Assembly: GCA_029204225.1 (NCBI GenBank)
Contig: CM055097.1
Span: 5,063,125-5,127,124 of the forward strand
Source: Diphasiastrum complanatum
Taxonomy: Eukaryota > Streptophyta > Lycopodiopsida > Lycopodiales > Lycopodiaceae
Direction of reading: 5' to 3'
DNA: 64,000 nt
Position numbers and translations under genes: made by a program
Shown here: positions 6,918 through 61,525 of the stretch, in pieces
Numbering within the stretch: the stretch's first letter is position 1
Layout: each line of letters starts with the position of its first letter
Notes under the pieces: model-generated
Database searches by the model: none
What the model was told of the DNA's origin: nothing
The model's input: the letters and a program-made list of their open reading frames with translations, nothing else

Positions 6918-8045
6918 CTACAAGCTAGATTTGATACTTGAACTGTAGCCATTGTCACCGGAAAAGTCCCAGAACATCACTCCACCGTACTTGCTCGAGG
7001 ACCTGATATGGGGAAGTATGGAGGAGATGAGAACATCGCTTGGAATGAAGCCGTTGTCAGTTGCAGAAGGCGACACTAGCAAGCCCAAGAAGATCTTCTC
7101 CGCTGGAGTGTGTTGAACCCATTTGTTCCAGGCTGCCAGACCGCTGGACTGATCTCTGTTGGCATTCGGATTGAAATTACAAGGTGGGTTATTGTAGAAT
7201 TGCACCCATACGTAGTCGAAAAGCCCAGTCTGAAGAGCTAAGCCTTTACCTGGGCCTACGTAAGCATCTGGGAAGAGACACTGCGGTGCGGCACTGAGAT
7301 AGTAATGCTTCGATTTGCCTTTGGTAAGCTTGCGAATAGATTGGGCTAGTTGGGCATACGATTGCAATCCGTTGCCTTTCTCGATGTCAAAATCGATGCC
7401 GTCCAGCACTGCCTCACCCAAAGGCCTGTGGCTGGAAGTACCTCCCAGGAAGTTGTGCCACAGATATTGTGCCAATGAGTCTGCCTCTTTCTGTGAGCCC
7501 ATGCCATATTGTCCATCTGCCCCTCCGAGAGAAAGCAAGATCTTTACTCCTTTCTGTTGGCAGGTGTGTATGTCTGTGGATAATGTAGTACATCCTCCAC
7601 TAGGAGGATCACAATGCCCAGCAAGGTCAAGCCCCGGAGACTGTCCTCCTCCGAAATTGTTCAAAAAAGCCATAATGATGACCCCATAGTTTCCAGTGTT
7701 ACATGCATCAGCGAGAGAGCCTTCCTTATCGCCTTGCCCCCAGTAGACAGCTATGAATCCCTTTCCCTTTCTAACAGCATCGAAACTTGTTTGTGCAAAT
7801 GGTGCTGGTCCTGGGCCAGAACTAGGTGTTGATGCTGGTGCTTGGGTAGAATTAGAACACTGGATCAGGCAGCCACTTCCGCAATAGACATCTGTAGATC
7901 CACAGTATCCATGTTGGCCACAACAAAGGCCCTCACTACATAAATTGGTGGCTGAGCATCTCTGCGCAGCTGAAAAATCCAACTCATACATTAGAATCAG
8001 TGATTGGAGTAACACAATAGCGGCGGAACGCTGATTTCGTGCCAT
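6918..8045 (-). CDS. CBM18-GH18 chitinase (class III type catalytic domain)
   Basis: A predicted secreted endochitinase that hydrolyses chitin beta-1,4 links, a defence role in plants. It is intronless, 375 aa. The ATG at 8045 is used because the preceding in-frame codon read as a start is GTG. Residues 1-27 are a signal peptide with a hydrophobic core. Residues 30-63 form a hevein-like chitin-binding domain with all eight cysteines (...LCCGQHGYCGSTDVYC...). A Ser/Pro/Thr-rich linker runs to about residue 90. The GH18 domain then fills the rest, with the strand motif LLSLGG and the catalytic DGIDFDIE (acid Glu222). Most angiosperm class III chitinases lack the chitin-binding domain; fusions are known in some non-flowering plants. 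A paralogue without CBM18 lies at 60596-61525. The frame is intact and likely functional. Confidence 0.95.
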   Translation of the reverse strand: MARNQRSAAIVLLQSLILMYELDFSAAQRCSATNLCSEGLCCGQHGYCGSTDVYCGSGCLIQCSNSTQAPASTPSSGPGPAPFAQTSFDAVRKGKGFIAVYWGQGDKEGSLADACNTGNYGVIIMAFLNNFGGGQSPGLDLAGHCDPPSGGCTTLSTDIHTCQQKGVKILLSLGGADGQYGMGSQKEADSLAQYLWHNFLGGTSSHRPLGEAVLDGIDFDIEKGNGLQSYAQLAQSIRKLTKGKSKHYYLSAAPQCLFPDAYVGPGKGLALQTGLFDYVWVQFYNNPPCNFNPNANRDQSSGLAAWNKWVQHTPAEKIFLGLLVSPSATDNGFIPSDVLISSILPHIRSSSKYGGVMFWDFSGDNGYSSSIKSSL

Positions 8046-8095
8046 CTTCACGTAGTTGTGGTTAGCAGTGGGTGAGTGTATGTGTGATCTCTTGA

Positions 8096-8215
8096 TCGTT
8101 TGCGCTTCTATTTGAAATCAAGAAGACAAGGTGGGGAGAGAGAGAGTGTGTGTGTGTGTGAGAGAGTGAGTGTTTGCTCGTTTGTGCTTTATATATTTGA
8201 ATTCAGGAACACATG
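8096..8215 (-). repeat. Promoter duplication around a (GT)n/(GA)n microsatellite
   Basis: Two imperfect copies of a segment with the plus-strand core CGTTTGTGCTT...TATTTGAA (8097-8130 and 8178-8212) flank a GA/GT simple repeat at about 8138-8168. The upper copy holds the TATA box; the matching position in the lower copy is degenerate (TTCTATTTG). Confidence 0.6.
8187..8195 (-). promoter_or_regulatory. TATA box of the CBM18-GH18 chitinase
   Basis: TATATAAAG on the minus strand, about 140 bases upstream of the ATG at 8045. Transcription would start near 8160, giving a leader that contains the GT/GA microsatellite. Confidence 0.55.
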
Positions 8216-14224: not shown

Positions 14225-14429
14225 AGATCAACAAATTATCAAAAATTCAGAAAGGCGTGCAAATTTATAAACGAAAGTAATATTGATGCAAGACTCAACC
14301 CATAGTAATTTTCATGATATCAGACGAAAAAAGTATATGTATTATATGGCATCATTTGACGTACAATGCACGACAAAATCGTTGTTTCTCTTTATCTTTA
14401 ATGATCAGCTTTGCTGTGTGGTAAATTTT

Positions 14430-14896
14430 TTTTCTATCATATGGACCTAGAAAATCAATGGATCTTCTTTTGCTCAAGTCTATGTATCCGAAGAAAACAG
14501 TTAAGGAGGAAGACCTTTTAGGAACTTCCTCAACTACATAGCCAAATACTTTTATGACAATGTCTCTCCTCGCAAAAATAATTTTATATGTATTCTAAGG
14601 GTATTTAGCAAATCTCTTTATTTACAAAGCACTTCAAATAATGGGACAGGGATGAATCCCTTTGTTGTGATCCCTGGCCTTCCCTCACATATCCCTATCT
14701 TGTTGCAAAGGCATCTACCTCCACAGTAGCTTGTAAAATACGAGCAAACGTCACATATCTTGAAAAAAAAATAACTATATTTGAATAGAAATCTCATTCA
14801 AATAAAACCGAATTTACTTACCAGATCACGCTCATCAGCTTGAATAATTGTAGCAGTATGTAAATCATGACCAACAATTATGGTCGTCGAAGCCAT
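14430..14896 (-). pseudogene. Cassette gene B, copy 1 relic
   Basis: The end of the family described at 53101-54483. The exon-1 remnant (14822-14896) reads TIIVGHDLHTATIIQADERD, close to the other copy's TIIAGHNLEAAGVIQADEED. It has a GTAAGT donor and a 92-base intron (14730-14821), matching the 93-base intron of the other copy at the same position. Exon 2 starts VEVDAFATR and then carries several stops and frameshifts, though the order of motifs (YLKCFVNKEIC, a GYIDL-like segment) is kept. The first ~260 codons are absent. Non-functional. Confidence 0.75.
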
Positions 14897-14970: not shown

Positions 14971-15070
14971 GTATCGCCATCACGCGTGAAATCTGTCTTG
15001 GTCTTCTTCTGTGACGTTATCCTCACATCGTAGAGATATCCATCTGTACCTCCCAATATCGCCATCACAC
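14971..15070 (+). promoter_or_regulatory. Two TATCGCCATCAC motifs upstream of H copy 1
   Basis: GTATCGCCATCACGCG at 14971-14986 and AATATCGCCATCACAC at 15055-15070. The second lies about 80 bases upstream of the H start. The second cassette copy has GTATCGCCATCACGTG at the same distance from its H start (55385-55400). Conservation of motif and spacing suggests a leader or promoter element. Its function is unknown. Confidence 0.5.
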
Positions 15071-15133
15071 AAACGAGTCTGTTATTCATTGCCATAGTAA
15101 TACTCTCTTACATGGTAAAAGTATCCGACCTCA

Positions 15134-16700
15134 ATAGCTCGGATGAATCAAACTGCTAGGCTTACTAGCTTTGTTGAACCAGCCCGTCCACAGACTTCTG
15201 GACCCGTACCTCTGCAAAGATGCAGAAGACCTCACCGTCCATGGTTGAGGGACATCTGGGCATTGCAAAGGAGCACCAAGCTTCTGATCCCGAAAGCAGC
15301 CTTCTACCGGGCTCTGAGAGAGGTCACGCAAGATATGACTGCTCATCTGCCCTATGGAGTGAGGTGGAATATCACTGCATTGGAGGCACTCCATACTGCA
15401 TACGAGGACTTCCAGACAAAACTGTTTGAGGATTCGATCATGCATGCCAAGAGGGTGACATTGATGCCCAAGGACATGCTTCTTTTCATGAGGCTTCGAA
15501 ACACCTATGACAGTATTTTTAAGTTTGGCTTCACATAGAGGCCAGTTCCTCTTGAAAGGGGGCTTGTCCCACCCCAAAAAAGAGAGAAAGCAAGCACATT
15601 TGAAGCGTTCACAACCCAAGCCTAGGCCTAGGTCTCCCAGCTCTTCATCATCGCCTCCTCGCATTAGAAAAGATGTGGTAAGTACGTCGAGAATTCCATG
15701 GGTTGAGAGTCCTCCCCCAAACCCTGATCTTGAAATGCACAGTTCTCCTTCTCTACATGCAGATGATTTAAATATAGTGGTGGACATGATTGTTTCTAAT
15801 GTTGATGCAATTGATAAAGAGTTGCACATCAGACTCCCCAATGATCCAAAGGACACATTTTGATTTTGAGAGGTACATTGATTTTGACATGTATATAGCC
15901 AAAAAAATAGACGATCTCAGAGGAGAGTTTATGTTTTGTTTATATGATATTAATTTTCCAATGCATATCAAAGACCCACATTGTAGGGAGCTAAAGGAGA
16001 AGACCTCCCATATCTCAAACACAATAGTTGAATCTGGGTGTGTATACTATGTACATAAATATACATATACAATCAAGAAGGAGATTTTTGTTGTATCCCC
16101 ATTTTTTGGGCATCTATTGAATAAAGAGAGGAAAGCTAGAAGGCTCTTCAGGCACACAAGCAAGGAGGCATCAATCTTCATCATCCCATACTGTGCTAAG
16201 TAAGATAATTTCTTTTTGTAATATTTGTTTTTTGTAAGATTTTTCTTTTTGAAACTCTTTTAGATTCTAGTAATTCATTGCTTATTGTCATTTGCTAGCA
16301 GTAAACATTGGAGCATGCACGTCATATCTATGAAAGTGGATTTTACTAGAAGCTGCACACCTATGTGCATGACAATGAATTCCTTGCATGCCACCCATTC
16401 CACTGTTAAGTCCATGTACAAGAGGATGGTGGAGCTATTGCCCAGGCCAGATGGGCTGATTGTAAATACTAACATAGAGATTGTTGATGCAAAGGTGAAA
16501 AAGATCTTTTCACGTTTTTTATTTACATGATGGCATGGAGTTTAGAATTATATTGAATTATAATTTAGCATTTTTTCGCTGTGATTTCTCAGTCTTTGCA
16601 ACAAGATGATGCTTTCAGTTGCGGATGGTTTTCCATCTAGAATGTAAAATCATTCTTGGATTGGTATATGGTGCAACCTCCAAATGCTAATATTCGTGAG
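15134..16700 (+). pseudogene. Histone H3/CENH3-like fusion gene (H), copy 1
   Basis: A divergent relative of histone H3. The N-tail ARMNQTAR at 15137 matches the H3 tail ARTKQTAR, but its start codon is now ATA (15134) and the residue after the tail is Leu, not Lys9. The fold follows: WLRDIWALQRSTKLLIP, an alpha-1 helix (LREVTQDM), a loop 1 about four residues longer than in H3 and ending VRWN, then LEALHTAYEDF and LFEDS, and IMHAKRVTLMPKDM, matching H3 IHAKRVTIMPKDI. LLIP and the loop-end Arg-Trp resemble CENH3. A stop at 15536 and a frameshift follow. The coding signal continues through a Lys/Arg/Ser/Pro-rich tail and an unrecognised domain (FERYIDFDMYIAKKIDDL to IFIIPY). Exons: 15134-16198, 16302-16494, 16593-16700, with introns of 103 and 98 bases. 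Broken by start loss, stops and frameshifts. Confidence 0.85.
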
Positions 16701-17240
16701 ATAAATTTCTTAGCTTCCAGTATCCTGATGATATTATGGTAACTTTCTGTATTTTAGACATTGGCTTAACATACATACATACACTCGATATTTTAAATTG
16801 CAGTTCCAATGTCCAGAGGTATCAACAAATGCTATTCATCAGTACCGGCATGAAATGTTGAAAATCTTACTATCGTCTGCAAGGCCCTACAAGCATGAAG
16901 CCCTCAGATGAAATTGTCAGGGGTTCTGTGGATTGCGAAGTTGCAATGCTTGAGGATCTGCCTCAGACACTTATGATTGAGATGTAAATATTGAAATATA
17001 AGTTCCGACAAATACATAGAAATATATCATCACATGATGATGCATAGAACAACAGATAGGGGGCTATTATTGAAAGCCACGAATATATTATTTCGATTTT
17101 AAAAACAATGTACATTTTTCAAAATACTAAATGCTAATTGTTCGATGAAATCTTGAAGTCATTTGAGACTACTTTGTATTTTTTTTTTGAAAGGTACATT
17201 GTTGTTTCACGTCTACCATTCCACAAGTAAAGTCTAATTA

Positions 17241-25109: not shown

Positions 25110-27000
25110 ATAAAATTTAAGTATAGAAAGTTTTGATCTAAACTTATCAAACTTTTCTCTAATGAGTGGCTTAGTGAAAATGTCAACTAGTTGCTCATCT
25201 GTGCTACAATGAACAACATTTATTTCTCTATCAATAGTCTCTTACGCATAAAGTGATAGTGAATCTCGATATTTTTTATTCTCTCATGGAACACCAAATT
25301 ATTTGTCAATTGAATGCCACTTTGACTGCCTCTACGTATAATTGTGAGATTTTCCTGCTTCATGTCTATCTCATCCAAGATCAAATGGCTTCTTGAGCCG
25401 CACTACACAATGCCTTATACTCTGCTTATGTCGTAGATAAAGTAATTGTGCTTTGCTTTTTATTAGGCCAAGAAAAGCAATTGCCACAAAGTTGAAATAC
25501 ATACCCACTGGTCAATCTACGATCGTCACACTATAAAATATGTTTGGCTACCTTCTCATGTGCTTCAGTAGGTGCCGCCACAAACTGACTTACAATACCA
25601 ACAAAATAGCATACATCAAGATAAATCAAGCTTCCTACCAGTAGCCTATACACTGTAGCATTAAATGGTTGTGACTCATCAAGCTTAGAAAGCTTTTTAC
25701 TTGGCTCAATAGGAGTGTTCATTGTCTTGCAATCTTGTAGCTTGTGCAACAATTCTCTGACATGCTTAACATGTGTTAGTCCCTCTTCATGTCCTTTTTG
25801 CCACACTTCCGCTCCAAGGCAATAGTGCATAAGGTTGAGATCCATCATCTCGATTTGGTTCATGAGATCATTTTTTATTATATCTATCATCTCTTGATTA
25901 TTTCCAATGGTAATGAAGTCATCAACTTAAAGAGCAACCACGACAATCATACCATCAGAAAATAAGACATAAAGTCGGAATGTGTTCTCACTATTCCCTT
26001 TGAACGGACTTAGGCACCGATCCTGCTATACCACGCATGTGGTGCTTGTTTAAGACCATACTTCAGGCAACATACTTTATGCTCTTGTCCATTTGTCACA
26101 AAGCCTTCAGGGTGATCCATGAACACTCCTTCTTCTTTCAAATCACCATTGAAAAAGAAGATTTTACATCCATCTGATGTAAAGGCCAACCAAAATGTGA
26201 AGCTAAAGCAACAAGCAAACGTAGAGTACTCCACTTACACAGTGGTGCAAAGGTCTCCTTGTAACACAAAAGGGCCATTATCAAGAGGAATTCTTACCAT
26301 ACTACTAGACCAATCTTTGTTGTTTGTCATATGTCTAGTGGCTCTCGAATCAATGTACCAAGCAAGATCTTCTTGATTTGATGACAATGCTAAAGATGCT
26401 AGAATCTTCAGTTTCATCCTCATCGTCAAGGTTGTCTGCTAGCTTTGGCTTTCCCTTGTCTGATTCCACCAAGAATTTTTGACATTTGCTTTTCCAATGG
26501 CCCTTTTGCCGCAATAGAAGCATTTGCCCTTCTTCTTGGTCTTATTGGAAAATCCCCCATCCTCTTGGGCCTTGGCATACTGTGTTTAAACTTTTTCTTA
26601 ACCTTGCCCTTGCCTTGTTTCTGGCGTGCCACAAGTGCTTTGATCGTTAATGTTTTGACATCAAGCTTTCACCATTTCTCATCGTTGTCCTCCTGCATCA
26701 AAATTCCTATGAGCTTGTCAAAGGTTGGTAGTCTTTCTCTTGATGTTATCCCACTTTCAAACATCTAATAGGGCCCTACAAGGCCACATAATGCATTTTG
26801 CACCTATTCTACATCTCTCATGCACTCGCCTATGAAATGCAATTCATCCCTCAAATGTCTTGATTCTGGTTATATATGTTTGAATATGCTCTCCTTGTTC
26901 CATTCGAGCACTATTCATCTTTGATCTTAGAAACATGATCTACGACAAATTTGATATCTTGAACTACTCCTTTAGTACATCCCATTCCTATCTTGGTGTA
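25110..27000 (-). mobile_element. Ty1/copia element b, internally deleted
   Basis: Read on the minus strand: gag with a zinc knuckle (readable as GKCFYCGK near 26510-26530), then protease at 26235-26429 with WYIDSRATRHMT in place of the active DSGA. The integrase is absent. At about 26234 the frame passes directly into reverse transcriptase (FFFNGDLKEEGVFM, KQAPHAWY). The rest of RT (25531-25890, MHYCLGAEVW, LLVGSLIYL) and the end of RNase H at about 25130-25230 (DEQLVDIFTKPL) follow. The Gly-to-Arg protease change and missing integrase make it non-autonomous. Confidence 0.8.
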
Positions 27001-27112
27001 AATGCAAGCCAATTACAAAAGTGTTTGGCATTGCATACGGTATATATACCACAGCTGACAGAATCAACTTGCTGGGAGGACTGAAGAATCCAAATTTGAA
27101 CATTATGAGATA

Positions 27113-27268
27113 TCGGATCAACGCGTAGGATGTAAGAATAAAATCTACAACGGAAACAAGCGCACGTCAAACCGATATCAAATTTTTTTGATTGAATATC
27201 GGATCAGCACGCACGTTGGGAAAATAAACCAATCAATAACTACAAGGGCACGTCGAACCGATATCAAA
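27113..27268. repeat. Two-copy ~78 bp tandem repeat with CGATAT cores
   Basis: Two units each begin ATATCGGATCA-CACG and end CACGTC(A/G)AACCGATATCAAA. They sit at the 5' end of copia element b, where the leader would be. A related array with the same GATATCGG-type core lies at 33704-33962 in the leader of the other copia element. Confidence 0.65.
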
Positions 27269-27370
27269 AAATTTATACCTCTGCATCAACCATTTTTAGC
27301 TTCGAGTATGCTTTTTCATTTGGTACTGGAAAGAGTTCCAATATTTTCTGTATATGAGTCCTGGCAATTT

Positions 27371-27390
27371 TGTGTGTGTGTGTGTGTGTG
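27371..27390 (+). repeat. (TG)10 microsatellite
   Basis: Perfect dinucleotide run with no coding context. Confidence 0.9.
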
Positions 27391-27736
27391 TAATAGAGTT
27401 CATCTTCAAACAAACTGGATTACACACACCCTCATCATTGACGTATAGGGACAACACATATAAGCTCCAATGATCACTGAAATCAGAAAACAAGAAATCT
27501 ATGAGAATCAATGTGAAATCAAAATTCATATGAAAAATTCAATAAAATAAAATCTGAAAAATAGACATTTACTTTGTTATGTATGGCAGCACAAGAATTG
27601 GAGTCCCCAGTCTGACGTATTGGAGCATATCATTGTGCAAACTTTTGAAATCAGGGAAATCAAATGCTGCCATGAATTGAAGGGGAAACAATGCAACATC
27701 TATAAACAATGGGGTCTAAAAGAACTCCATTCAATA

Positions 27737-29286
27737 CTAAATTGCCCCACTTCCTACATTGTCCCCTAGCATTTTATCCCTACTTTCTAATTCACCAGTA
27801 TCTAAACTAGAAAGGGGGAGACCAGCATTGGTCTTCGGAATCCTAAAACTGTATCGAGGACCTAAACCTTTAAGATACGTGTTTAACAATTGGTCATACT
27901 GTACATATTGAGAACTATTTACAAAGGCAAGTGCAGGGGGTGACGGAAGTAACACTGATAAACCACATAAAGAATTGTCATTCAAAATTGATTCTACCTT
28001 TACACTAACAAAATCATCTAAATTGCTTCCAACAACAGGAGGAGGGGAACTAATATTTACGAGTTTAGGAGGAGGAGGAGATTTAGGAGGTGGAGATTGG
28101 TTAGGAGAGGAAGATTTAGCAGGAGAAGTTAAAGATGGAGTGGAAGGAGAAGAAGGAGACTTAGGAGGAGAATTAGGAGGAGAATGCCTAGAAGAAAGAA
28201 TAGTATTCAGAGGAGATGGCTTGGAAAAATCCCTCGCTTTAGATGGAGGGTCGAGAGACCTCCTCTTCTTTGAAACACTCCGGCTCTGTATACGAATAAC
28301 AAGCTGGGTTGGTTGAGATTGCTTTCGTTTTCTCCTCTCTGAATCTTGTTTTGGAGGAGAGGAGGGAGCAGGTCTAAAGTATTCAATCAAAACAGTCTCT
28401 ACAATTTCAGTTTTCATTTTTTCAAACCGAGCATTTTTTATCATTTCCTTTGCTGACTTTCTTGGTAAAACATGACTTGAAGATGATCCAATGCATGAAC
28501 GATCTGTTAATTAGTTCTTTGCCACCAAACATGATCTGCAACAAACATATGAAACTCAAATTATATTTAGTAAATAAATAATCCATGTTATCAAGTGCAA
28601 ATCAAACTTAAATGACATATACAAATTAAATAAACAGTTTAGATGACAACATACTTGAATGCTTGGATTCTTTTTTTCTGATTGCCGCTATGTGTAGATA
28701 GGTCATCAATATTCTTCATCGGTACTCTCTTTCTTTTTCACTTCATCATTGCCTTATTGATAACTTTTAGATCAACAGCAGATTTTAAACTCTCGGATCG
28801 CAACTTTTCCATGGATTCTAACATTTCTTGGTTTGATCCTCTAAGAGTAGTGACAGTTGCATTCAACTTTGACATAACATTCTTGAGTACATTGGTTTCA
28901 GCACTAGTGTGTTGCACATAATGAAGCAATTGTTGATTTGCACGTTGCAATTGTTGATTAGCAAACTGTAATTGTTGATTCAGACAAGATATGCTACTAT
29001 CACGCAACCTTTGACAATATCCAAGTAATCTGCTATTTCCTTCACATACATATCTGAGAAGATGAGTTACGAACTTAAAATCTGGACACAAATTGGTAGC
29101 TGGATCATTAGGATAATTTGATCCATCCAACCACAAATCTATATTCATATAATTATTCATTCTCAATTCTCTAACTATCGCTGCAACATTCTCTACAACT
29201 TTCGTATTTTCCTTAATAATTGGAGTGCATTCCATCGGAAGAGCAACATGCAAATGGAACATTACCATTGTTAAAGCTACAATCAT
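27737..29286 (-). pseudogene. Unrecognised coiled-coil / Pro-Ser-rich gene
   Basis: Two open minus-strand blocks look like exons of one gene. The upstream block (28738-29286, 182 codons) begins with a hydrophobic segment, then VRELRMNNYMNIDLWLDG, and ends in a long coiled coil with repeated NQQLQxA heptads. The downstream block (27737-28444, 235 codons) is basic (ERRKRKQ, SKKRRS), then a Pro/Ser/Lys-rich repeat (SPPKSPSSPST), then a more ordered C-terminus (LPSPPALAFVNSSQYVQYD). A possible acceptor (TTGTTGCAG) precedes the second block, but an in-frame TAA near 28510 lies between it and the ORF start. No family is recognised. The layout of head, coiled coil and Ser/Pro linker recalls the broken ORF at 3202-6240. 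Confidence 0.4.
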
Positions 29287-29689: not shown

Positions 29690-30326
29690 AATGACCACAT
29701 CCAAAGCATGCTCCATCAAGAATTTTCTCTCGAACAAAATGGTAGTCTATTTCGATGTGCTTGGGTTGAGCATGTAGAACTGGATTTTTGGCAAGGTGAA
29801 TGCAACTTTGATTATCGCAAGATATAGTAGTAGCATCCACTTTTGGTTGACTTAAATCCACAAGCAATCTTTGTAACCATACCGCTTTTTGTGTAGCATT
29901 GCTGAGTGCTCGATATTCAGCTTCTGTCGATGATAAGGCTATTGTAGGTTGCTTTTTGCAGCTCCATGAAATTGCAACTATACCATAACTGAATGTATGA
30001 CCACTGGTAGATCTTCTGTCATCAATATTACCTGCCCAATCGGCATCTGTATAACCTACCAACATTGGCGCTTCAGGCTGATCATACTTCAAACCAAAAT
30101 TCAATGTCCCTCGAATGTATCTGAGAATACGTTTAATAGACTTCCAATGTGCTTGACTAGGATCTTGCATAAATTGACTAACAACACCAACAACATAAGA
30201 AATATCAGGTCGTGTGTGTGTCAAATAAATCAAACTACCCACCAGTTGTCTATACAAATAAGCATCCACTTTCTCAGATTCATCATATGCAGTAAGCTTC
30301 ATGTTGACATCCATAGGTGTACTCAA
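29690..30326 (-). pseudogene. Copia element c RNase H, 3' truncated
   Basis: Contains GSLIYLTHTRPDISYVV, YTDADWAGNIDDRRST, LSSTEAEYRALS, SCDNQSCIHLAKNP and HIEIDYHFVREK. The usual end with an ADIFTK motif is missing because the element is cut at about 29690. Confidence 0.9.
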
Positions 30327-30380
30327 AGGCTTACAATCCTACATATTGAACTTATAAAGCAAATCTCGTGCATATTTGCT

Positions 30381-31319
30381 TTATGTAAGAAAGATCATGT
30401 CTTTCTTTTTCCATACTTCAATGGAAAGACAATAGTGCATCAATCCTAGATCACTCATATCAAAAGCATTGGAAAGATCTGATTTTATTTCATCAATTAA
30501 GCTCTCATTACTTCCTGTAATAATCAAATCATCCACGTACAATGCAATGAATACTATATCTGAGTCTTGCCTTAGAATGTGAAGATTAGGATCATCATCA
30601 CTCTTTACCATTCCCCTTCGCTTGAAGTGTTCATCAATGCAAGAGTAACACGCCCGTGGTGCTTGCTTCAATCTATAAATGGCTTTGTTGAGCTTACAAA
30701 CGAGATGCTCTCTCCCTGGCTCAACAAATCCTTGAGGCTGTACTAAGTACACCTCTTCATCCAACACTCCAGTAAGAAAAGCAGATTTAACGTCCATTTG
30801 CTGGATCTTCCAACCATAGAAAACAGAAATAGCAATGACAGAACGTATAGTTACCATCTTAGCTACGGGTGCGAAGGTTTTCTCAAAATCAATACCTTGC
30901 TGCTGCTCAAATCCTCTCGCAACCAACTGTGCTTTGTACTTGTTGAGTTGCCCATCATCTCCATAATTGATCTTGTATATCCATTTGCAAGTGATAGGCG
31001 TCTTACCATCAGGTACCTCAACCAAGTTCCATGTCCTATTTTTCATTATAGCTTCCATTTCTGTTTCCATAGCTTCACGCCACTCCTTGTGCTCCTTTGC
31101 TTTATCAAAAGTTTTTGGTTCTTGAGCCTTGAGCACAAAACCCATTAGGGCTAGATTCATCTCTAATCTTGCAGGAGGTTTTCGATTTCTACTTGATTTT
31201 CTAAGCTCTCCCTGCTCACTTGATTCGGGAGTATCTCCCTTATTAGCATCACTTGTTACTGACAAGTACCACTTAGGCACTCTCCTAGGAATCTCATTAT
31301 TGACCCTGTCTTTTTCCAT
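30381..31319 (-). pseudogene. Copia element c reverse transcriptase
   Basis: RVT_2-type reverse transcriptase. WREAMETEMEAI opens the domain. It is followed by VARGFEQQQGIDFEKTFAPV, the catalytic MDVKSAFLTG, KQAPRACY and the intact YVDDLIITG box. The frame ends at 30381 with KKKDMIFLT; a frame change carries on into RNase H. This domain on its own appears undamaged. Confidence 0.9.
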
Positions 31320-31543
31320 TGGCTCTCCATATCGACACCAACTTCTTCCTTCACTTGCACTTTAGCTTTATCATCAAAGAGATCAATTGTCAATTTTATT
31401 TGGTCATTTTGACCCATCTCATCAAAAGTAGCATCTCTGGAAATCATGATCTTTTGTGCATCTGTGTCATACATCCTGTATGCCTTGACTCTTTCATCAT
31501 ATCCAAAAAAAAAACACTTAACAACTTTTGCATCCAGCTTCTT

Positions 31544-38409: not shown

Positions 38410-40785
38410 CTAATATAGAGGGTTAACAATATAATAGATAAACAGAGTGGGAAAGAGAAATGAGCATATTTGAAGGGAACATATATGATTGTAATATCTT
38501 GCACAAGTTACAGGATCATGTCGAATAAGGTTTTGTATATTGCTTTCTTCTAAATGCAAGTGTGTATCGGAGTTATGAATATTTGCTAAGCTATGCAAAC
38601 ATGTTACAATTTCTGGCCAATGTGACTCAGCACTTGTGAACATTACAAATAATGTTGTGGATCCTAGTTGTCTGATCATGGCAAATATGTCCTTTTTTGT
38701 TTTGTCAAGATAATCGGGTGATGTGCGTAGCATTCCTAGATCTCTATATCCAATATCAGATTTCATTATTGTGGCAATTTTCGAAGTGTCAAGCATGTCT
38801 TTTACTTTAAGAGTACGTCCATAAGTTTTTCCTTTTCGTATATGAAATTGTGCAGTTGATAAAATGAACTTAATTTGACATTTAATAGTTTTTTAAAATA
38901 GATTTGGAATGTGAGTTGCGAAACGCCTATCATGGTGCATGATTTTCCATTGTGCAATTTGTTGATATGTATTGTTTTTTGAAGAGCATTTTCTGTTGTC
39001 GACATCTATAAAACAAAGTTGGGAAATTTGAAATAATCCAAATGGTTGATAACCTTCGGCTGGTGCTATTGAGATGATTTTGTCTTCAAAATTTTGTATT
39101 TTTGTGATGTTAAAAAATTATGTAAATAATATTGCTATCAGTATTCTGTAATATTCATTGGCTTGTAATTGTTCTTTCCAATTAGGAAGAATTTGTATGC
39201 CCAATTTAGTATACAAAGTTTTGCAAAGGTCTTAAAATGTTGTCATTACGATATCAGGTCTAATTAAGGCTGAAGCAAAAACTTATTTATATTCAAGCTT
39301 TCGCTTTATTTGTATAGCTATAGTGGAATTCTCATCAGGGAATTGAGGCAGTGTAGTTTGAATCTTATCCAAGTTACTAGGTACATTAACAATGCTTCCG
39401 TGCAAACTAAATTGCATTTGCCGAATTTGTGCAAATGCATGTCTAGGTGATACTAAGCGTTCTTCCAATTAGTTCAATTTTTCAACAGTTGGTATTTTTT
39501 TGTTCATTGATACATTTATTGGGAATAGAAATGGCGGCATTCTTTTAGCCTTCAAATATTTATAACAATTCCTGCAAGTTCGCATTGTATGTTCATTTGC
39601 ATAATCGACATTGTTTTGTTTTAATTGTTTTAAATATAGGCTTATTTCTACTGGTAATTGCTTTGTTTGACGTTTGAAATTGAGTTTTCCACAACTACGA
39701 CATACATGTATAGGTGTGTCTTTTATTTGTCGAAGGTACCTTTGTTGTTCTTTATTTTGAGCAACATTATGATTTGTATCTTGAGAAATATGGTAATGTG
39801 CAGATTGATTATTTGGGAGTTCATTATTTTGTCTTTTTAAGTATCGTATATATCGGGCAATTGCAGTTATTTGAATATGTGCATGTAAATCAATAATTGA
39901 GCAAAATTGTTTTGATTTCAATACTAGAGAGATATTTGTTATCATGAATTAGTTGTAAAATTTGTTCACGGTATAAAGTTGCCCATTCAAAACAAGTTCT
40001 ATTTTCAACATTTTGTTGAACATATGTTCTTGGCATTATGCCATGACAATGTTCTGTGTTTTGTTTTTTCAAGTATTTGATGTGTCTTGTGACTTGTTTT
40101 GTAGTCAAACATTCGGTTGGGATTTTCATAGTTTCTAAAAAAGAATTCGCAATTTGCTCGATTTTCAAAGTTTTGTCAGCCATTATTTTGAGTAATTCAC
40201 GATTCATATGAGCATGCCAATAGAACTTTGTATGTCGTTTTCTTTTCCGGTTTATTGTTTTAGTAATTGGCATGATTTCCGTATTGTATTCAAAAGTTGC
40301 CTTTTCAGTAGCAACATTGACACTTGCTTGTTGAGTATTGCAAATAATTGTTTGAGAACTTGGTATTGAAGGCAAATATTGTTTGTTTTGTGCATCATAC
40401 AATAATGTTACTGTTTTTGAACTACTAACAGGACATGTTTTTATACTATGCCATATTTCTTTGAAATTGGTTGACAAAACAATGATTATATTGATGTTTA
40501 AAGCCAAAGAAGTCCAAGTGAGCAGAAATTCGTCAAGATATACAACAGTAGTGTACTTTACTTGTGTTTGATCTTTGATAAGATATTCTGTCATAAACAA
40601 TGTATTTTGTGCATATTTTGATCTGTATCAAAATATTTTTGTTGCCAATGAATCACAATTGGATCTCTTTCATCTAAACATGTTTCAAAATATTGTATAA
40701 TTGCTTGGAAGTTGATTTCTTGTGGCCTACTTTTGTGTTCTAGCGACATTGCCAAACTCTCAAAAAAGTTGCTTGCAGTAGCCAT
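38410..40785 (-). mobile_element. Truncated Helitron protein region (DUF6570-like and Helitron_like_N)
   Basis: Helitrons are rolling-circle transposons. From the N-terminus on the minus strand there is an N-terminal block (39900-40785) whose part VYLDEFLLTWTSLALNINI through VTLLYDAQNKQYLPSI tentatively recalls an OTU cysteine-protease fold. Two similar helical repeats ending in YIKYLKKQN / YIRYLKRQN follow. Next is a cysteine region (CRSCGK ... TCRNCYKYLKAKRMPPF) with LVSPRHAFAQIRQM, HGSIVNVPSNLDK and IKRKLEYKS, matching DUF6570-type Helitron proteins. Last is a Helitron_like_N region (DRRFATHIPN, FAMIRQLGSTTLFVMFTSAESHWPE, HDPVTCARYYNH). The sequence loses similarity at about 38470, before the HUH Rep and helicase domains. 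Frame breaks lie near 40600, 39900, 39469 (single TAG) and 39100. A dead fragment. Confidence 0.8.
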
Positions 40786-42349: not shown

Positions 42350-43405
42350 TCACATGTACGACAAAAACATGTCGCCTACATGAAAGACTGGAAAAACCTT
42401 ACTGCTGTGTGGGAGTTCTAGTTCATAGGTGACCTCGCCTAGTCTCCTACTGATGGTAAAGGGACCACAATACCTTGGAGACAACTTAGCACACACTCCT
42501 GATTTGAGGGTTTTAGAGTCGACTGGGACCCTCAAGTAGACTTTCTCACCAGTGGAGAACTGCACAGCCCGTCTGTGTGGATCTGCATAATGTCTGGCTC
42601 GATCCTGGGACTGCCTAATGCTACGCTTAGCATGTTCTATCATCTGATTTAGGTCCTCTAAAAAGTTTCTGGCTGCTTCAACTTTTTCTTGTTTAAACCC
42701 TACAGCTGTGGGTGAGCGTGGCTGAAAATCGTACATCAACATAAATGGGCTGTATCCCGTAGCTAAATGTTTGGTATTGTTGTAAGCAAACTCTAATATC
42801 GAGAGATACTCCTCCCAATTAGTCTGCTTCTTGCTGACGTATGCACGAAGCATATCCTCCAGCACCTGATTTACCCTCTCTGTTTGACCGTCCGTCTGTG
42901 GATGGTCGGTGGTATTCATATTAAGTTTAGTATGGAGATGATGGAATACTGCCCTCCAAAAATTTCCAGTAAACTTACTGTCCCGGTCGCTGACTATGCC
43001 GGAAGGTAGACCGTACAATTTAAATATCCCATCTACAAACAACCTCGCTAACTTTGGAGCTCTAACGGTTGTTTTGGTCGGAATGAAATGAGCCATTTTG
43101 GTCAGACGGTCAACTGTGACCCATATAGCGTCATTACTCTTTTGGGTTTTAGGCAGGCCTACTATGAAATCCATGGAGATACTCTCCCATTTACCAGCTA
43201 GTATTTCTAAGGGATGCAACAACCCTCCTGCCTTTAAACGCTCTACTTTGTTTACTTGACATTTCTGGCAACTGGTTACATACTGGTGGACGTCCTTTTT
43301 CATACTGGGCCAGAAAAATTGCCTACGAAGAAGCTCATAGGTCTTCTGTATGCCTGGGTGTCCCGCACTAGGATTGTCATGACATTCATATAGGACCTCA
43401 ACCAC
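42350..43405 (-). pseudogene. Ty3/gypsy integrase (long intact frame)
   Basis: 351 codons open. Zinc finger H-H-C-C: HDNPSAGHPGIQKTYELL with SCQKCQVNK. The catalytic triad is complete: Asp in ISMDFIVGLP, Asp in VSDRDSKF, Glu in DGQTERVN. The C-terminal GPF module (PRYCGPFTISRRLG) and VFPVFHVGDM follow. The domain itself could fold, but the element lacks its upstream genes. Confidence 0.92.
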
Positions 43406-43772
43406 TTGGGTTTGCTTGGATTGGGGACACGTACTCTATCTCTATAGAGCAAGTACTCATCCTGAATGGAATATTGTTTCCATTTGAATCCTTGAGTTAA
43501 TTGACCCTCAACCACTTGGGTTTGCTTGGATAATACAAGCTCAGAATCCTCAAGGTCATCTGACGACGTATACTCGGACTTATTATCATCCTCAACGGAA
43601 GCTGCCGTATTCTTGGATGAACTGGCACCAACCCCGGGAACTGGTTCTGGAGTCTGTAACTGTCTGCTCTGGACCGAGTTCCAGATAGTAGAGAAGAATG
43701 CATCATGCTGGCATTTCCCTCTCAAGGACTCGAGTAACTCATTACGAATCATAATAAAACTCAGCTCATTTA

Positions 43773-47973: not shown

Positions 47974-50554
47974 CTAGCCACCGTCGCCCGTTGCAGAATG
48001 GATAGGGCCTAAGCACGTTGCAGGGCAATGGAAATACGTTGTTTTCCACAAGAATAGAACCAGGAATACCTTGACGCTCGGTGCTGCCATGTCTGCCGCT
48101 TGTCCTGGTGTGAAGGCAGAGTGAGGCAATAGGTCACCACGCGTGGGATCAGCAGCAACAACATCTGCCAAAGTACGAAGCCCATCCCGAGAGAGGACAG
48201 TGTCAACATGCCTGCGGGAAGAGTGGGATGCGGAAGAAGGAAGGACATGAGATTGCTCTCTGAGGACATAGAATCCTCCATCTCTGGCTATAGCGGCCGC
48301 TGCATCTCTGACAACATCATGCGTAGCTGTGCGCTCACTCCCAGGAGGGCAGCGGAGGAGGTGGATAGCAAGAGCATCAATAGGGTGACCACGAAAACAC
48401 CTAGAGAGACCCAAGACTGAAGGATGAGTAGCTCCAAGCAAAGACGAAGAGCAGTGGTGAAGATGGCCGAAGACAACCGAAAGGAAGGAATAACAGGCCG
48501 AGCTGACAACCAAGCCCCTACACCACGACCGGCACAAGAAAGAAGTCGAGTTTGATGCAATGCCGAAGGAGTCTCAGAGAGCATGCTGAAAAGGGTTTGC
48601 TTGTGCACGCACTCCAAGATGGTCTCTTGCCGGTGATCTGAACTGAAAGTGAGGAGTTGCTCAAAAGGAGGAAGACAAGCTCGGGCAGAGAGGGGGAGGA
48701 GCTCTTGCACAACGATGAGGAGGTGTTGGAAAGGTAGAGAACTGGTATCCACATGAGCAATGCAATCTGCCAAGAGGAGGCGAAAGCCAGAGAGGAACTG
48801 AGAAGACAAAGCAGGGGCGACAAGAGCCCAGCTCCCAAGAAAAGCTATAAATGCAAAAGAAACCGTAGAGAGAAGACCCACACCTCTAGAAGAAATGGAT
48901 AGCCGAGCCTGGTTCCGAGCTGAAAGGGTCTCCACACTATCCAAAGAACTTGGGCCCAAAAGACGACCAAAAACATCCATAATAGAGCTGTCAAAGGAAG
49001 AGAGAAGATGCAAAAAGTCCTGAGTAGGGGGGAAAGTCCGCGACATATAAGAAGGACGCTGGATAAAGCAAGACGTCAAGATGCCAAACGCGACCTGAGT
49101 GTCGCCCAACCGGGGAAGTCGATATGAATGAGCAACATCCTCCTGGAGAGCCTCACCAAGAAAAGCATAGCTGAAGGAAGCAGACCCAAAAGGAACACCT
49201 AGAATGTGAATGCCATCCGAAGGAGCAAGAAAACCTTGAGGAGGAACAAAGTCCGGGGGAAGACCTGCAGGAGACCACACTGAATACTTGGAAGGTTGAA
49301 TAGACAAACCAAGAGAAGCCAACTGCTCAGAGAAATGATGAAATGCGAGGAGCACCGTAGGAGCAGGACCAACAATATGAGTGTCATCAACAACCGAAAG
49401 AAATAAGCAGGAGGGAAAGGCCTTTGCAGAAGCTCGAAGTGCACAAAAATGAGGTAGAGCAAAAAGAGGACCACCCAAAGGATCACCTTGACAAGTACCT
49501 GCTGCAGATTGGATAGTAGAAAGATCTCCAGAGTGCACATGGTGATTGTAAAAGAGAGGAGTCTCATAAGCATAGAACAACCGCACAAACGGAATAAGCT
49601 GAGCCAACTCACCACCATCCGCGTGCAGCTCCCGAAAGATCGCAGCTCTAGAAACAGAATTAAAAGCATTGAAAACATCCACTTGGAGAACAACCCAGTC
49701 AGGATGGAGGTTAAGGGTGGCACACAAACCATGAATGACAGCTTCATAGCCGCCAGGAGTAGAGATGCCAAACTGATGAGGGGAGAGAAAAGAGACGAAA
49801 ATATGTTGAAACTGAAAACAGATAGAGCGACTAACAAGACAGAAGAGGACTTCACCAATAGCAATGGAACGGACGCCACTCGAGGCTTTAGTCATGGCGA
49901 TTAAACGAGACGCAGACAGAAGACGTGCAACAGAAGAAGAAATGTGACCAGAGGTGATAAAAGAGCAGACCTGAAAGAGTTGAACAAAGCCACTAGCAGA
50001 GTCCTCAGGTGGAAAGCAATCACAAAGGTGTTCATAGACCAAACCGGAGGGACCACCAACAACAAGACGAGGACTACGATGGAAGGCATGAGAGAAAGAA
50101 TCACGATCAAGCACCAAGTCAACATCGGACACAAAGTCCTCCACAAACAAGGGAATAATGCCTTCAAAAGCAGTATGAAGAGCTTGGAGAGCAACAACAG
50201 TATCAACAGAAGAGGAAGTGGGTGTGAGAGGAGCTAAAGCTCGAGTTGCATGAGAATACTCACCAACTTGCCCAAGATGTAGGGTGCGACGAAGGCGACG
50301 GTGGAGAGGTGGGTCACCTTGAGGTTGAGAGTCCTTTGAGTTGCAAGTAGCAGTGCCTGACAACGTGCAAAGTGTTCATCCTGAAGCGTTTCCCAGTCTC
50401 TCGAGAGAAAGCGACGAAGGCGAGCATGAGTTTCTCTATGACCAGCATCCCCACCCCTCAGAGGGAGGACTAGACACCAAAGGGGAAAAAGAAGAAAGAG
50501 ATTCCAAGCCGCAATGTCAAAGGGGTAGCCAAGCGATAACAACTGGAGTTTCAC
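47974..50554 (-). mobile_element. Non-LTR-like reverse transcriptase with possible RLE-type C-terminus
   Basis: Minus strand. The N-terminal part (50234-50554) shows LPLRGGDAGHRETHARLRRF. One frame over is a 691-codon frame (48288-50363) with a reverse transcriptase: RSIAIGEVLFCLVSR, the Asp-containing palm motif LQVDVFNAFNSV, AGTCQGDPLGG, and the catalytic SVVDDTHIVG in which Val replaces the usual Tyr/Phe of the YxDD box. A further frame (47974-48537) holds IDALAIHLLRCPPGSERTATH, a Cys/His-type segment, and VDTVLSRDGLRTLADVVAADPTR, which looks like a restriction-enzyme-like nuclease core. This is not a standard plant L1 or RTE LINE; no APE endonuclease is seen. Two frameshifts make the copy inactive. 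Similar proteins exist in some non-flowering plants, from memory. Confidence 0.7.
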
Positions 50555-53100: not shown

Positions 53101-54483
53101 TCATTTTTTTTCATTGTCTCTAAGGACAATTTTTGTTGTGTGGTCATGAAGGAACTTTTTCCTATCATAAGGATCCAAAAATCGAGTGGATTGCTTTTTG
53201 TTCAGATCTATATATCCTGATAGAATTGCCAGAGCAGATGATCTCATAGGAACATTTTCTGGCACGTAATTGAACACTTTAAGAGCAACATCTCTTTTGA
53301 CAAAAATGATTCTATATGTATTTTTTGGATATTTATGCCCTTGGGAAAAATAAGATAGGGCCTTGATGGCCATGATTAAGATTCTCGCATTCACAAAAAA
53401 CCTTTCATGAAGAATACAAATTTTGTTATTTACAAAATGTTTCAAATAATGAGCCAATGAGGCATCCTTCTGTCTCCCGCCTTCTCTCTCTCTCAATCCT
53501 CCATGCCTGCTAGCAAAGGCATCAACTTCAACGATTTCCTACAACACATAATCAAGTTTTGGTCAAACTAGCAGATCAATCATCAGTTACACGTTAAATA
53601 GTAAATTATTTTTGTGAGAAGGTGTACTTACCAAATCCTCCTCGTCAGCTTGGATCACACCAGCAGCTTCTAAATTGTGACCAGCAATAATGGTCAATTG
53701 CTGGTAAGCTGGAATAGTATATATGAGAGGTGGCAAATACTTTTTCTGAAAAGCCAAAAACTCCTCCTCACTCGGCATATTAGCTTCATATGCCATGCTC
53801 TCAGATAGCATCCTTTGAAAGGCATCTGTGCCACTTGCCCATTCTAGCTGGTCCTCATAGTCGATGCCATCTATGAGGTCGTCATCATCAAAGTCAATAA
53901 AATCATTAAATTCAGAAATTATCCTTGACATAAGAGATAATATCTCATCTTCTCTGAGATCCATTATGTCTCCGATGTCACTAATGGACAAGAATGCAAT
54001 ATCGTCCATATGGTACATAGGGAGGTCCATCAAAGTTCTGCTCTGGTCAATCTCGCTCACGGTAGATAAAGGAGAGATAGACAGAGAATGAGCCTTGGCA
54101 GGATCATATTGTTGTGCTTGCCTAGCCTCCTCTACATCTCCTAAAACCTCATCAGTAATGGAAACCTTTGAAGCCACACGGGTAGTAGGGGCAGGTAAAC
54201 CAATCATGGACGACCCAAAAGATTCTGTCTCGTCAGGGATAAGAGTAGATAAGAAAAACACGAAGCCCATACCCTCTTGAATGAAGCGACATACTCGATT
54301 GTGTTCCTCACAGGGTATGACACATTTAAATAGATCGATAAACTTATGATCATGCCTTTGCTTGGCACTAGGCTGAGCATGAGTCAAATCTATGAAATGC
54401 ACAAATCTCAGGCCGTCCATTAGAAGGGTACCATGTTGCAAGCACTCATAAAAATCCTTGTACAGTTTGGGAAAAGCTTCCAT
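53101..54483 (-). CDS. Cassette gene B, intact 429-aa protein of unknown function
   Basis: Two exons, 53632-54483 and 53101-53538, joined by a 93-base intron with GTAAGT donor and TTGTAG acceptor, give an unbroken 429-codon frame ending at 53101. The first part has YKDFYECLQHGTLLMDGLRF and VCRFIQEGMGFVFFL. A strongly acidic centre (FIDFDDDDLIDGIDYED) and TIIAGHNLEAAGVIQADEED follow, and the exon-2 part is basic (YPKNTYRIIFVKRD, FLDPYDRKKFLHD). No signal peptide, membrane span or known motif is seen. The frame is open upstream of the Met at 54483 to an acceptor-like TTTTCAG at 54517, so a short first exon (perhaps the ATG at 54623, MASSSTS) is possible. It is the only undamaged gene of the cassette. 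The relic at 14430-14896 is its paralogue. Confidence 0.6.
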
Positions 54484-54672
54484 GTGCTCAATAACAAATC
54501 TCTCTATGTCAAACTGAAAATCAAATAAGACAAAAAATGGTCCTGTCTGTCGCTAACCCCAGCATCAACAAGAAAAGAACTAAGAGCTCTATCATAGATC
54601 GAACTAGTAGAAGAGGAGGCCATATCGATATGAGGCGCCGATTAGCAAGGGGACATAAACGGTGTAATCCTG

Positions 54673-55402
54673 GGCGCGTGATGGCGATATACACTACTGT
54701 ACACGATTCTGCATATCGGAACTACACGCCAGGGGAGCAGTGCGACATTTAACCGTTTGTTGGGTGCGTGGTAGCGATATTGTATGTACTGATTTTGAAG
54801 CAGGTCGGTTTCTTGGACTCAATATGCGAAACTGAATTCCGAAAATGACACTCATATATATAGTCTAATTCAGAGCATTTGCACCGTACATGTATTTCGA
54901 AAACATGCGGTCAAAATTGCCACACATGTGGAAACGACAGCCACATAGTTTTTATGACATGTGTACACTTCGGATCCTGACATGTGTCCTTGCAAGTGCA
55001 TGCCAATTGTACGATCGTCCGAGCCAGTCGTCCCGTGACACGTGTGTGGCCCAGATCGTGACACGTGTCCTCGCACATGCATGCCAATCGTATGATCGTA
55101 CGGATCGGTGATGTCTTGACACGTGACAGGCCGGTGTGATGACACGTGTGACCACACGTGCGGGGATTGGAGGTGTCACATCACACGTGTGATATTGATG
55201 GGACGTTCTGCAGGTATAAAAGGACATTTTGGACTCATATTTCCGTTTCGAATTTCTTTGTTCCCTAGCACTCCTCAGATTTCTTCGTTCACTTGTGCCC
55301 CTCGCTATCTGCATATCGCTACCACACGCCCAGAGAGTCAGTACAGCTTCCCCCTCCATGCGTCGTAGCGATACGCCACCTCTTGTATCGCCATCACGTG
55401 CC
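54673..55402. promoter_or_regulatory. Symmetric inverted motif pairs in the B-H divergent leader
   Basis: The outer pair is GCGTGATGGCGATAT (54676-54690) and, inverted, GTATCGCCATCACGTG (55385-55400). The inner pair is GCGTGGTAGCGATAT (54766-54780) and, inverted, ATATCGCTACCACACGC (55313-55329). Each gene of the divergent pair thus carries the same two motifs in the same order and orientation relative to itself. Copy 1 keeps the outer motif upstream of H. Confidence 0.6.
54976..55221. promoter_or_regulatory. CACGTG palindrome array and TATA box between B and H
   Basis: Six CACGTG hexamers lie at 55039, 55062, 55120, 55143, 55155 and 55184, mostly as (T)GACACGTGT, with CATGTG variants further left. 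A tandem duplication of about 82 bases (54976-55057, 55058-55138) built part of the array. TATAAAA at 55215-55221 points towards H, whose ATG is at 55465. CACGTG is a G-box recognised by plant bZIP and bHLH proteins, so strong regulated, possibly bidirectional transcription is plausible. Confidence 0.65.
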
Positions 55403-55464: not shown

Positions 55465-56984
55465 ATGGCCCATACCAAGCAAATAGCACGTCTTACCACA
55501 TTTGTCCCACCTCCTCGTCCTCCTGTACAAAGGGCAGTGGGCACTGGTAGGAGAGTAGATCGGCCTAGAAGACCATGGTGAAGGGATATCAGGAGACTAC
55601 AGAGGTTTGTGAGATTAGTGACAAGGTCAGTCCGACATGATGTTCGTTGGAACATAATAGCCCTAGAAGCCCTCCATATTTCCTATGAGGACTTTCAAGT
55701 TAAATTCTATGAGGACTCTACGCTTTGCACAGTGCACGCCAAGAGAGTTACCCTCATGCCTCAAGACATGCATCTTGTCATGAGGCTGAGGAGTACACAC
55801 GATCATGTCTTTAAGAGTGGCTTCACCTCTAGGCCACCACCTACAGAGAGAGGGCCTGTTTCTCAATGAAATAAGAGAAAGCAGACCAAGCTCACCAGGC
55901 CTACCAGGCAAAGGGTAGTACTCAGCGAATCACCATCCCGCCCTCATATCTCTCGTCCTTTGGTTGGACCATCACACCAGTCTGCAATGCATTCTTCTCC
56001 TCCCACCACCCCTAACTATTCAAGTAGTTCCTCTTCCATTCCCTCCATTCCATTCCACAATAACAAGGATATGACCTCTACGTAGATAAAATAATATCGG
56101 ATCTAGATATAAGTTTAATAGGTGATTTTTATAAGGATCTTTGTGTAAGATTTTTTGTTGATCTGAAAGATTCATTTTTGGATTCTGAGAGGTATATAGT
56201 TTTTGATGAGTATGTTGCCAAAGAGATTGATAAGCTAGGAGGTCAATTTTCTTTTTTTCTAAGTTCAATTAACTAGGTAAATCACATAATTAAAGACTTT
56301 TGTGATCCCCTGAAGGAGAAGACAACAGATATATCAGATCCAGTTGTGGAGGCTGGTTTGATGTATTTTGTAAATAGATGTAAATGCAATGATACTAAGG
56401 ACATTGGAGTTGTGCTGTCCTTTTTTGCACACAGCCTTCATAATCCAACTCAGGCAATGAAGTATCTTCTCCATACAACCTCGGATACCAAAGTCTTTAT
56501 TATTCCATACTAAATTACATAGAATATATTCAAGTAATATTTTTAATAGATATTGTAATTCCTTCAATTTAACTAATTATCTCTTGTTTGCAATAAGCAT
56601 TAGAGTATGCATATAATCTCCCTTAGGGAAGATTCAGATGGGATCATTAATCCCATCTGTTTAAAGATGAATTGCTTGAACTCTACCCATGTCAAAATGG
56701 ACGTGATGTACAACAGAATGTTGCAATCTTTGCCAAGGCCGGATGGGGCCACTGTAAATAGCCACCTGGAGATTGTTCATGCAGAAGTAAGTATTTCTCA
56801 TCAAGTATCTGATAGGTAATATGATTTGTTTTTTTTAGAGTGCACAACTAACCTATTATACGTTTTGTGATTGAAGTCAGCTCAGCAAGATGATGGACAT
56901 AGCTATGAATGGTTATCCATCCGCAATATACAGGACTTCTTAGAGTGGTACATCATACAATCCGGGGCTCCAGATATACGAAAG
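55465..56984 (+). pseudogene. Histone H3/CENH3-like fusion gene (H), copy 2
   Basis: The ATG at 55465 opens MAHTKQIARLTTF, close to the H3 tail MARTKQTARKST, with Leu at the Lys9 position. A Pro/Arg-rich stretch and RPRRPW follow, then a stop (TGA 55579), then RDIRRLQRFVRLV. About 17 residues of the alpha-N/alpha-1 region are deleted relative to copy 1. The fold resumes at VRWNIIALEALHISYEDF, FYEDSTLCTVHAKRV and TLMPQDMHLVMRLR, unmistakably the H3 alpha-2/alpha-3 region. After a stop at 55867 a Lys/Arg/Ser/Pro tail continues, then the same unrecognised domain as copy 1 (SERYIVFDEYVAKEIDKLGG ... VFIIPY). Exons: 55465-~56511, 56598-56786 (LPRPDGATVN), 56877-56984 (EWLSIRNIQDFLEWYII). Introns are about 86 and 90 bases. 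Broken, but better preserved at the N-terminus than copy 1. Confidence 0.87.

Positions 56985-60565: not shown

Positions 60566-61525
<960 letters not shown>

Follow-up and report, generated by a model that had tools for sequence, protein, structure and literature searches.

Decayed copies of a gene joining an H3-type histone to an Ulp1-type protease-like domain in Diphasiastrum complanatum

The 64,000-nucleotide stretch of Diphasiastrum complanatum DNA analysed here (contig CM055097.1 of assembly GCA_029204225.1; hereafter the window) contains two dead copies of a gene in which an H3-like tail and histone fold are followed by a linker and a Peptidase_C48-like domain. We interpret these as the remains of a gene for a chromatin-anchored Ulp1-like protease (H3-C48), which probably derives from a multicopy two-gene unit, and we assign this interpretation a probability of about one half. 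The order of the parts is most simply read as a histone anchor carrying an Ulp1-type enzyme. In the two copies these parts are as follows.

15134 to 15535, plus strand: copy 1, H3-like tail and histone fold, with ATA replacing ATG (Pfam Histone, E 3.9e-17; PDB Cnp1, E 6.7e-18)
15536 to 15864, plus strand: copy 1, linker rich in Ser, Pro and Arg, interrupted by TAG at 15536 and by two frame breaks (48% identical to copy 2 in nucleotides, 41 gap columns)
15865 to 16199, plus strand: copy 1, first half of C48 and the preceding segment, with no gap columns against copy 2
16200 to 16301, plus strand: copy 1, intron 1, 102 bases, phase 2, directly before the His; copy 3 has it at the same position, and copy 2 has lost the donor
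16302 to 16494, plus strand: copy 1, C48 exon carrying the His in NKHW and, at the expected Asp, the Asn of MNSL
16495 to 16592, plus strand: copy 1, intron 2, 98 bases, phase 0; position common to copies 2 and 3
16593 to 16700, plus strand: copy 1, C48 exon carrying the Gln and Cys in QQDDAFSCG and interrupted by one stop; the donor at 16701 is AT, not GT
16804 to 16908, plus strand: copy 1, last exon, with TGA at 16909; no convincing second match within the window
55465 to 55827, plus strand: copy 2, H3-like tail and fold, with ATG start, about 17 helix 1 residues missing and TGA at 55579 (Pfam Histone, E 2.3e-12, read-through)
55828 to 56984, plus strand: copy 2, linker and C48-like exons, with an intron at 56787 to 56876, Tyr for Cys and several stops; no Pfam C48 match of its own

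Neither copy is alive. Copy 1 has ATA at the position of the start codon. A TAG interrupts it at 15536, its frame is broken near 15587 and again near 15861, exon 3 contains a stop, and the donor at 16701 has been lost. This agrees with the initial annotation of this DNA, which had described a dead copy with an ATA start, stops and frameshifts. The same annotation placed at least two further exons behind the fold; C48 exons lie at 16302–16494 and 16593–16700, and the last exon at 16804–16908. Its introns of 103 and 98 bases need a small correction, since the second is indeed 98 bases but the first is 102, and its end point at 16700 is too early because the fourth exon carries the copy 1 gene to approximately 16911.

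The histone part and its affiliation

The copy 1 frame at 15134–15535 (plus strand) reads IARMNQTARL...LLIPKAAF...HLPYGVRWN...HAKRVTLMPKD, and the features first noticed by eye are all present in it: an H3-like tail (ARMNQTAR), LLIP, a loop 1 four residues longer than that of H3 and ending in VRW (as counted on a 13-row alignment that includes H3), and HAKRVTLMPKD. Against the Pfam Histone profile this region scores 63.1 bits (frame 15119–15538, E 3.9e-17), and copy 2 scores 47.7 bits, both above the cut-off of 26.4. A PDB search with the copy 1 histone part returned 177 distinct sequences at E <=1. The best 60 of these 177 are all of H3, H3-like, CENP-A or Cnp1 types, not H2A, H2B or H4. Among the same best 60, the closest entry is Cnp1 of Schizosaccharomyces pombe (fission yeast; 6.7e-18), followed by a CENP-A/H3.1 chimera (3.2e-17) and by H3s at 3.6e-16 and weaker, mostly near 1e-14. 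The deletions in the fold are complementary: approximately 17 residues of helix 1 are deleted from copy 2 and three residues before HAKR from copy 1, each copy being whole where the other is cut. An AF2 single-sequence model of the H3 part has four helices in the expected order but is of low confidence (pLDDT 54.8), and a fold search with this low-confidence model found no histones among 36 matches. The ARKS motif, which is the sequence context of both K9 and K27 in H3, is absent from the tails of both copies, and this would fit a nucleosome unable to carry the usual silencing marks.

The copies share with plant CENH3 and with fission yeast Cnp1 a longer loop 1, a Trp near the end of that loop, LLIP and RVTL, the last two as in Arabidopsis CENH3. 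They differ from these proteins in their H3-type HAKR and MPKD, in the large protease domain downstream and, as regards plant CENH3, in their position in a tree. This tree has 13 rows, seven of them reference sequences and two of them plant CENH3 (none from the host). In it, copies 1 and 2 are joined at 100/99 with a branch length of 0.78, and adjoin the sequence P0001 (85/77) outside both the H3 clade and the plant CENH3 pair, on a backbone of weak support. By pairwise score, P0001 and Cnp1 are nearest to copy 1, and P0001 followed by human H3.1 to copy 2. The CENH3-like character originally proposed stands for the loop 1 and Trp marks, but in the 13-row tree, with its weak backbone, the copies form a long-branch clade of their own apart from H3 and plant CENH3. 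From their sequences, we would describe the copies as a divergent histone of the H3 type whose loop features are CENH3-like, and as no more than that.

These features bear on an alternative in which a CENH3-derived protein would bring a deSUMOylating enzyme to centromeres, as a kinetochore or centromere factor that aids either transmission of the chromosome or element carrying it or insertion there. The four additional residues in loop 1 compared with H3, the Trp near its end, LLIP, RVTL and the position of Cnp1 as top PDB match among the best 60 of 177 all speak for such a factor; the H3-like HAKR and MPKD and the failure of the copies to join plant CENH3 (in 13 rows with a weak backbone) speak against it. 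On balance we consider this reading unlikely, although it survives best among the rivals of the chromatin-anchored protease.

The C-terminal domain and a third, histone-less copy

The initial annotation left the large C-terminal region as an unknown, and this no longer applies: with its exons joined, copy 1 scores 28.5 bits (E 1.7e-6) against the Pfam profile Peptidase_C48 (Ulp1), for which the cut-off is 20.7, and Histone and Peptidase_C48 are both above their Pfam cut-offs in a single read-through of this copy. The C48 part alone scores 31.2 bits on an initial joining of its exons and 26.5 bits (E 6.8e-6) when these are joined exactly at the splice sites. The motifs of copy 1 follow in the order NKHW (His), MNSL (Asn) and QQDDAFSCG (Gln and Cys), such that HW, MNS and Gln-x5-Cys are in place; the Gln-x5-Cys spacing is typical of the C48 family. 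Copy 2 gave no Pfam C48 match at E <=10 and has Tyr in the position of the Cys. A third, histone-less copy was found on the opposite strand.

26943 to 29268, minus strand: copy 3, coiled-coil-like N-terminal ORF (29268–28741), Pro-rich linker and C48-like relic without histone; Pfam C48 16.7 bits, below the cut-off of 20.7

The catalytic His, Gln and Cys are present in copies 1 and 3, and all three copies have Asn at the position where Asp is expected, this position being deduced from the motif order. The copies thus resemble SENP/Ulp1 (Peptidase_C48) proteases in their His, their Gln-x5-Cys and the Pfam match of copy 1, and differ from them in the Asn at the expected-Asp site and in the fusion to a histone fold. 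The C48 part as a single sequence found no C48 entry in the PDB; a profile of the three copies placed SENP8 first, aligned at the DCG cysteine, with an E value of 0.39 that is not significant, and an unrelated zinc-finger protein ranked just behind. At the level of sequence, we conclude that the C-terminal region is a recognisable Ulp1/SENP-type, Peptidase_C48-like domain.

The C48-like relic of copy 3 lies at 27.7–26.9 kb on the minus strand, and both of its introns are at the codon positions and phases of those in copy 1. Upstream, the place of the histone is taken by the coiled-coil-like ORF and the Pro-rich linker. Given the common introns and the histone-less N-terminus, the C48 module has probably been combined with different N-termini. 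A weak relative of the copy 3 N-terminus near 45.8 kb (E 0.007 and 0.028) was set aside, no C48 motif being apparent in the frames inspected. By reading of frames, a Copia-type polymerase frame lies just upstream of copy 3 (about 29691–31361, minus strand).

Gene B, upstream motifs and other contents of the window

In both copies a further gene, which we call gene B, lies upstream of H3-C48 and is divergent to it. Together with the motifs found between the two genes, it is arranged as follows.

14382 to 14884, minus strand: copy 1, remains of divergent gene B (57% and 45% identity to copy 2 in two pieces, by tblastx and tblastn)
14972 to 15069, plus strand: upstream of copy 1, an exact TATCGCCATCACG together with TATCGCCATCACA
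53101 to 54623, minus strand: copy 2, divergent gene B, family unknown, exons 54623–53632 and 53538–53101 with one frame break
54677 to 54779, minus strand: TATCGCCATCACG and TATCGCTACCACG in the leader of copy 2 gene B
54955 to 55192, no strand assigned: ACACGTGTCA-like array of copy 2, between gene B and H3-C48, with all 11 window matches at <=1 mismatch; none near copy 1
55313 to 55398, plus strand: same or near-same motifs as in the gene B leader, inverted, in the leader of copy 2 H3-C48 (inverted pairs I2, I3 and I4)

The gene B protein has an acidic middle and no match in Pfam, and a single-sequence model of part of it was useless (pLDDT 31.9). It is conserved in both units, and its differences between the copies show the same excess at third codon positions as those of H3-C48: 37/148 at the first two positions against 40/74 at the third in one piece, and 20/84 against 26/42 in the other. 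The upstream motifs are nearly confined to the units of copies 1 and 2, with the larger ACACGTG array limited to copy 2. The 11 window matches to ACACGTGTCA (<=1 mismatch) compare with 2.4 expected, and none of 100 shuffles reaches 11; for TATCGCCATCACG (<=2 mismatches), five of the six window matches are upstream of the two copies, with 0.49 expected and the sixth at 21362, and this count is likewise above all 100 shuffles. Since both motifs were chosen after being seen there, these counts describe the arrangement and do not test it. The intergenic region of copy 2 also contains TATAAA at 55215 (plus strand) and TATATA at 54855 (either strand), and the 254 bases that precede copy 1 showed no TATA box.

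No transposase profile matched any of the 105 ORFs (>=55 aa) that overlap 11.0–19.5 and 50.7–60.5 kb. Searches for ungapped inverted repeats of at least 20 bases yielded five pairs around copy 2, none of them spanning the unit, and 14 around copy 1, six of which do span it. These six pairs are not credible as element ends, because they are 21–26 bases long and 72–86% complementary, several are A/T runs, and they are unmatched at copy 2. With neither a transposase profile nor credible inverted ends, mobility of the unit is something that we infer. The same two negative results favour an ordinary host family, in which an old divergent gene pair was duplicated locally and both pairs died, the histone fold serving merely as a protein-binding module; so does the fact that the copies are 40 kb apart and old, with saturated silent sites. 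However, two old copies and a related C48 relic within 64 kb would suggest a repeated family, and we regard an ordinary host family as less likely again than a centromere factor.

The Pfam survey of the window covered 39 of its 63 stop-to-stop ORFs of at least 110 aa, plus one shorter ORF, and RVT_2 matched two of these 40. Two GH18 chitinase ORFs, at 6921–8117 (minus strand) and 60566–61522 (plus strand), are in opposite orientation with 82% DNA similarity over 848 columns; the former has a chitin-binding match just below cut-off, and hevamine is its nearest solved structure. An ORF of 695 residues at 48291–50375 (minus strand) has a reverse transcriptase match (RVT_1, 8.6e-9), and one of 361 residues at 42353–43435 (minus strand) has integrase zinc-binding and Tf2-1-like SH3 matches. 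A Helitron relic may also lie in the window, as judged from a Helitron_like_N match (1.6e-8) in the ORF at 38413–38892 (minus strand).

Conservation of the fusion, proposed mechanism and known systems

Copy 2, at 55465–56984 on the plus strand, has the same order of parts as copy 1, with 47% identity across the read-through. At the nucleotide level, 15354–16706 aligns with 55637–56990 over 1406 columns (E 6.6e-60), and this alignment passes uninterrupted through the second half of the fold, the linker, the protease exons and both introns, with nearly equal spacing in the two copies (1353 and 1354 bases). The stop codons are private, with none common to copies 1 and 2, and the comparison shows one continuous ancestral frame. 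The true fusion claimed by the initial annotation is upheld by this single alignment, and its caveat that the H3 and C-terminal parts might be separate neighbouring genes is not borne out by these two copies.

Differences between the copies are concentrated at third codon positions in both domains: 71/230 at positions 1 and 2 against 74/115 at position 3 in the H3 part (p 5e-9), and 130/410 against 115/205 in the C48 part (p 1e-8). In view of this excess and of the private stops, the histone and protease look to have been conserved together, in a single gene, until each copy died. In a global alignment, gap columns are absent from the 528 bases of C48 exons 1 and 2; they number six in exon 3, 63 in the H3 part (deletions in either copy), 41 in the linker, and 27 and 8 in introns 1 and 2. 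Nucleotide identity is 60% in the H3 part, 48% in the linker, 57, 63 and 60% in the three C48 exons, and 57 and 47% in the introns. Because intron 1 (43/75, 57%) is not below C48 exon 1 (190/335, 57%), the case for selection rests on the codon positions and the gaps. The linker has 26% amino acid identity over 62 codons and displays no codon-position conservation like that of the domains. By NG86, dS is 2.9 for C48 exon 2, and saturation leaves no value for the linker, the H3 part, either of the other two C48 exons (1 and 3) or the C48 exons when joined. On this sequence comparison, the two domains, and not the linker sequence, look to have been maintained as protein long after the copies separated.

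Two further alternatives have to be weighed against this pattern. Pieces of host genes captured within a transposon might have formed a chimera that was never a working protein, and this would fit with the different N-terminus borne by the C48-like module of copy 3 and with gene capture and domain shuffling by plant elements, as described for such elements (PMC13317346). The codon-position pattern in both domains at saturated silent sites and the freedom of C48 exons 1 and 2 from gap columns are contrary to it, and we consider it improbable. Least probable of all is that a histone-like gene and a C48 gene are neighbours that happen to be co-copied, for which the poorly conserved linker and an ATG followed by His-Ser-Ser-Pro codons in both linkers (a possible start, but in different alignment columns) can be adduced, against the single continuous alignment, its spacing of 1353 versus 1354 bases and the lack of a common stop after the fold.

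For the preferred reading, a chromatin-anchored protease, we propose the following mechanism. In the ancestral protein, an H3-like tail and histone fold would have been connected through a basic Ser/Pro linker to a cysteine protease of the Ulp1 type, a family whose enzymes take small tags off proteins. Its H3 part may pair with H4 or another histone-fold partner and so anchor the protein in chromatin, where the linker would give the protease reach to nearby proteins, and the protease, using a Cys-His-Asn mechanism, may free these of SUMO or of a similar tag. H3-C48 was probably co-expressed with the divergent gene B from the intergenic region rich in repeated motifs. By analogy with plant elements bearing an anti-silencing factor of their own, the likely benefit would be loosened silencing at the unit's own copies. 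A bolder version is conceivable but doubtful: a selfish chromatin protein of a new class, in which a nucleosomal H3 variant whose K9 and K27 positions lack the lysines for silencing marks brings along its own Ulp1-type protease. Its source would be a mobile unit of two genes, self-marked by motif arrays, and it would strip SUMO-dependent silencing from the copies of that unit.

In macroH2A, a core histone fold (H2A) is joined by a linker to a large C-terminal ligand-binding macro domain. The copies described here are alike in having a core histone fold with a large linker-borne C-terminal domain, and unlike in combining H3 with a protease instead of H2A with a macro domain. To our knowledge no H3 variant with a protease has been described, and none appeared among the papers found, as judged by their titles and the openings of their abstracts. 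A profile of the two copies searched against 5.8 billion proteins gave four matches among 5308 candidates, all four with a histone domain and none with a C48 domain, and a scan of IMG/VR confirmed none of 92 candidate stretches. Two of the four profile matches, P0003 and P0004 from Haematococcus lacustris (799 and 847 residues), have a long unrelated region followed by an H3/CENH3-like fold, and their internal MARTK suggests joined gene models. In overall plan, the Ulp1-type gene, second gene and motif arrays found here recall the VANC system of Arabidopsis VANDAL elements; VANC proteins bind short motifs arrayed across non-coding portions of the elements that encode them and lift silencing (PMC5735166). 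Some VANDAL-related elements carry Ulp1 domains, and Ulp1-carrying Mutator-like elements of this kind (KIU / Kaonashi) are alike in having a plant Ulp1-type gene in a repeated unit (PMC13317346). The units in the window differ from KIU and VANDAL elements in their H3 fold N-terminus and their motifs, and the searches around them yielded neither a transposase profile nor credible terminal repeats. We would therefore speak of a likeness to VANC/KIU elements, not of membership.

If live copies exist, they would represent a natural means of bringing a tag-removing protease to nucleosomes, and an example of a histone fold put to use as an anchor by a plant element or gene family. They would also make it testable whether such units escape silencing by editing the tags on their own chromatin.
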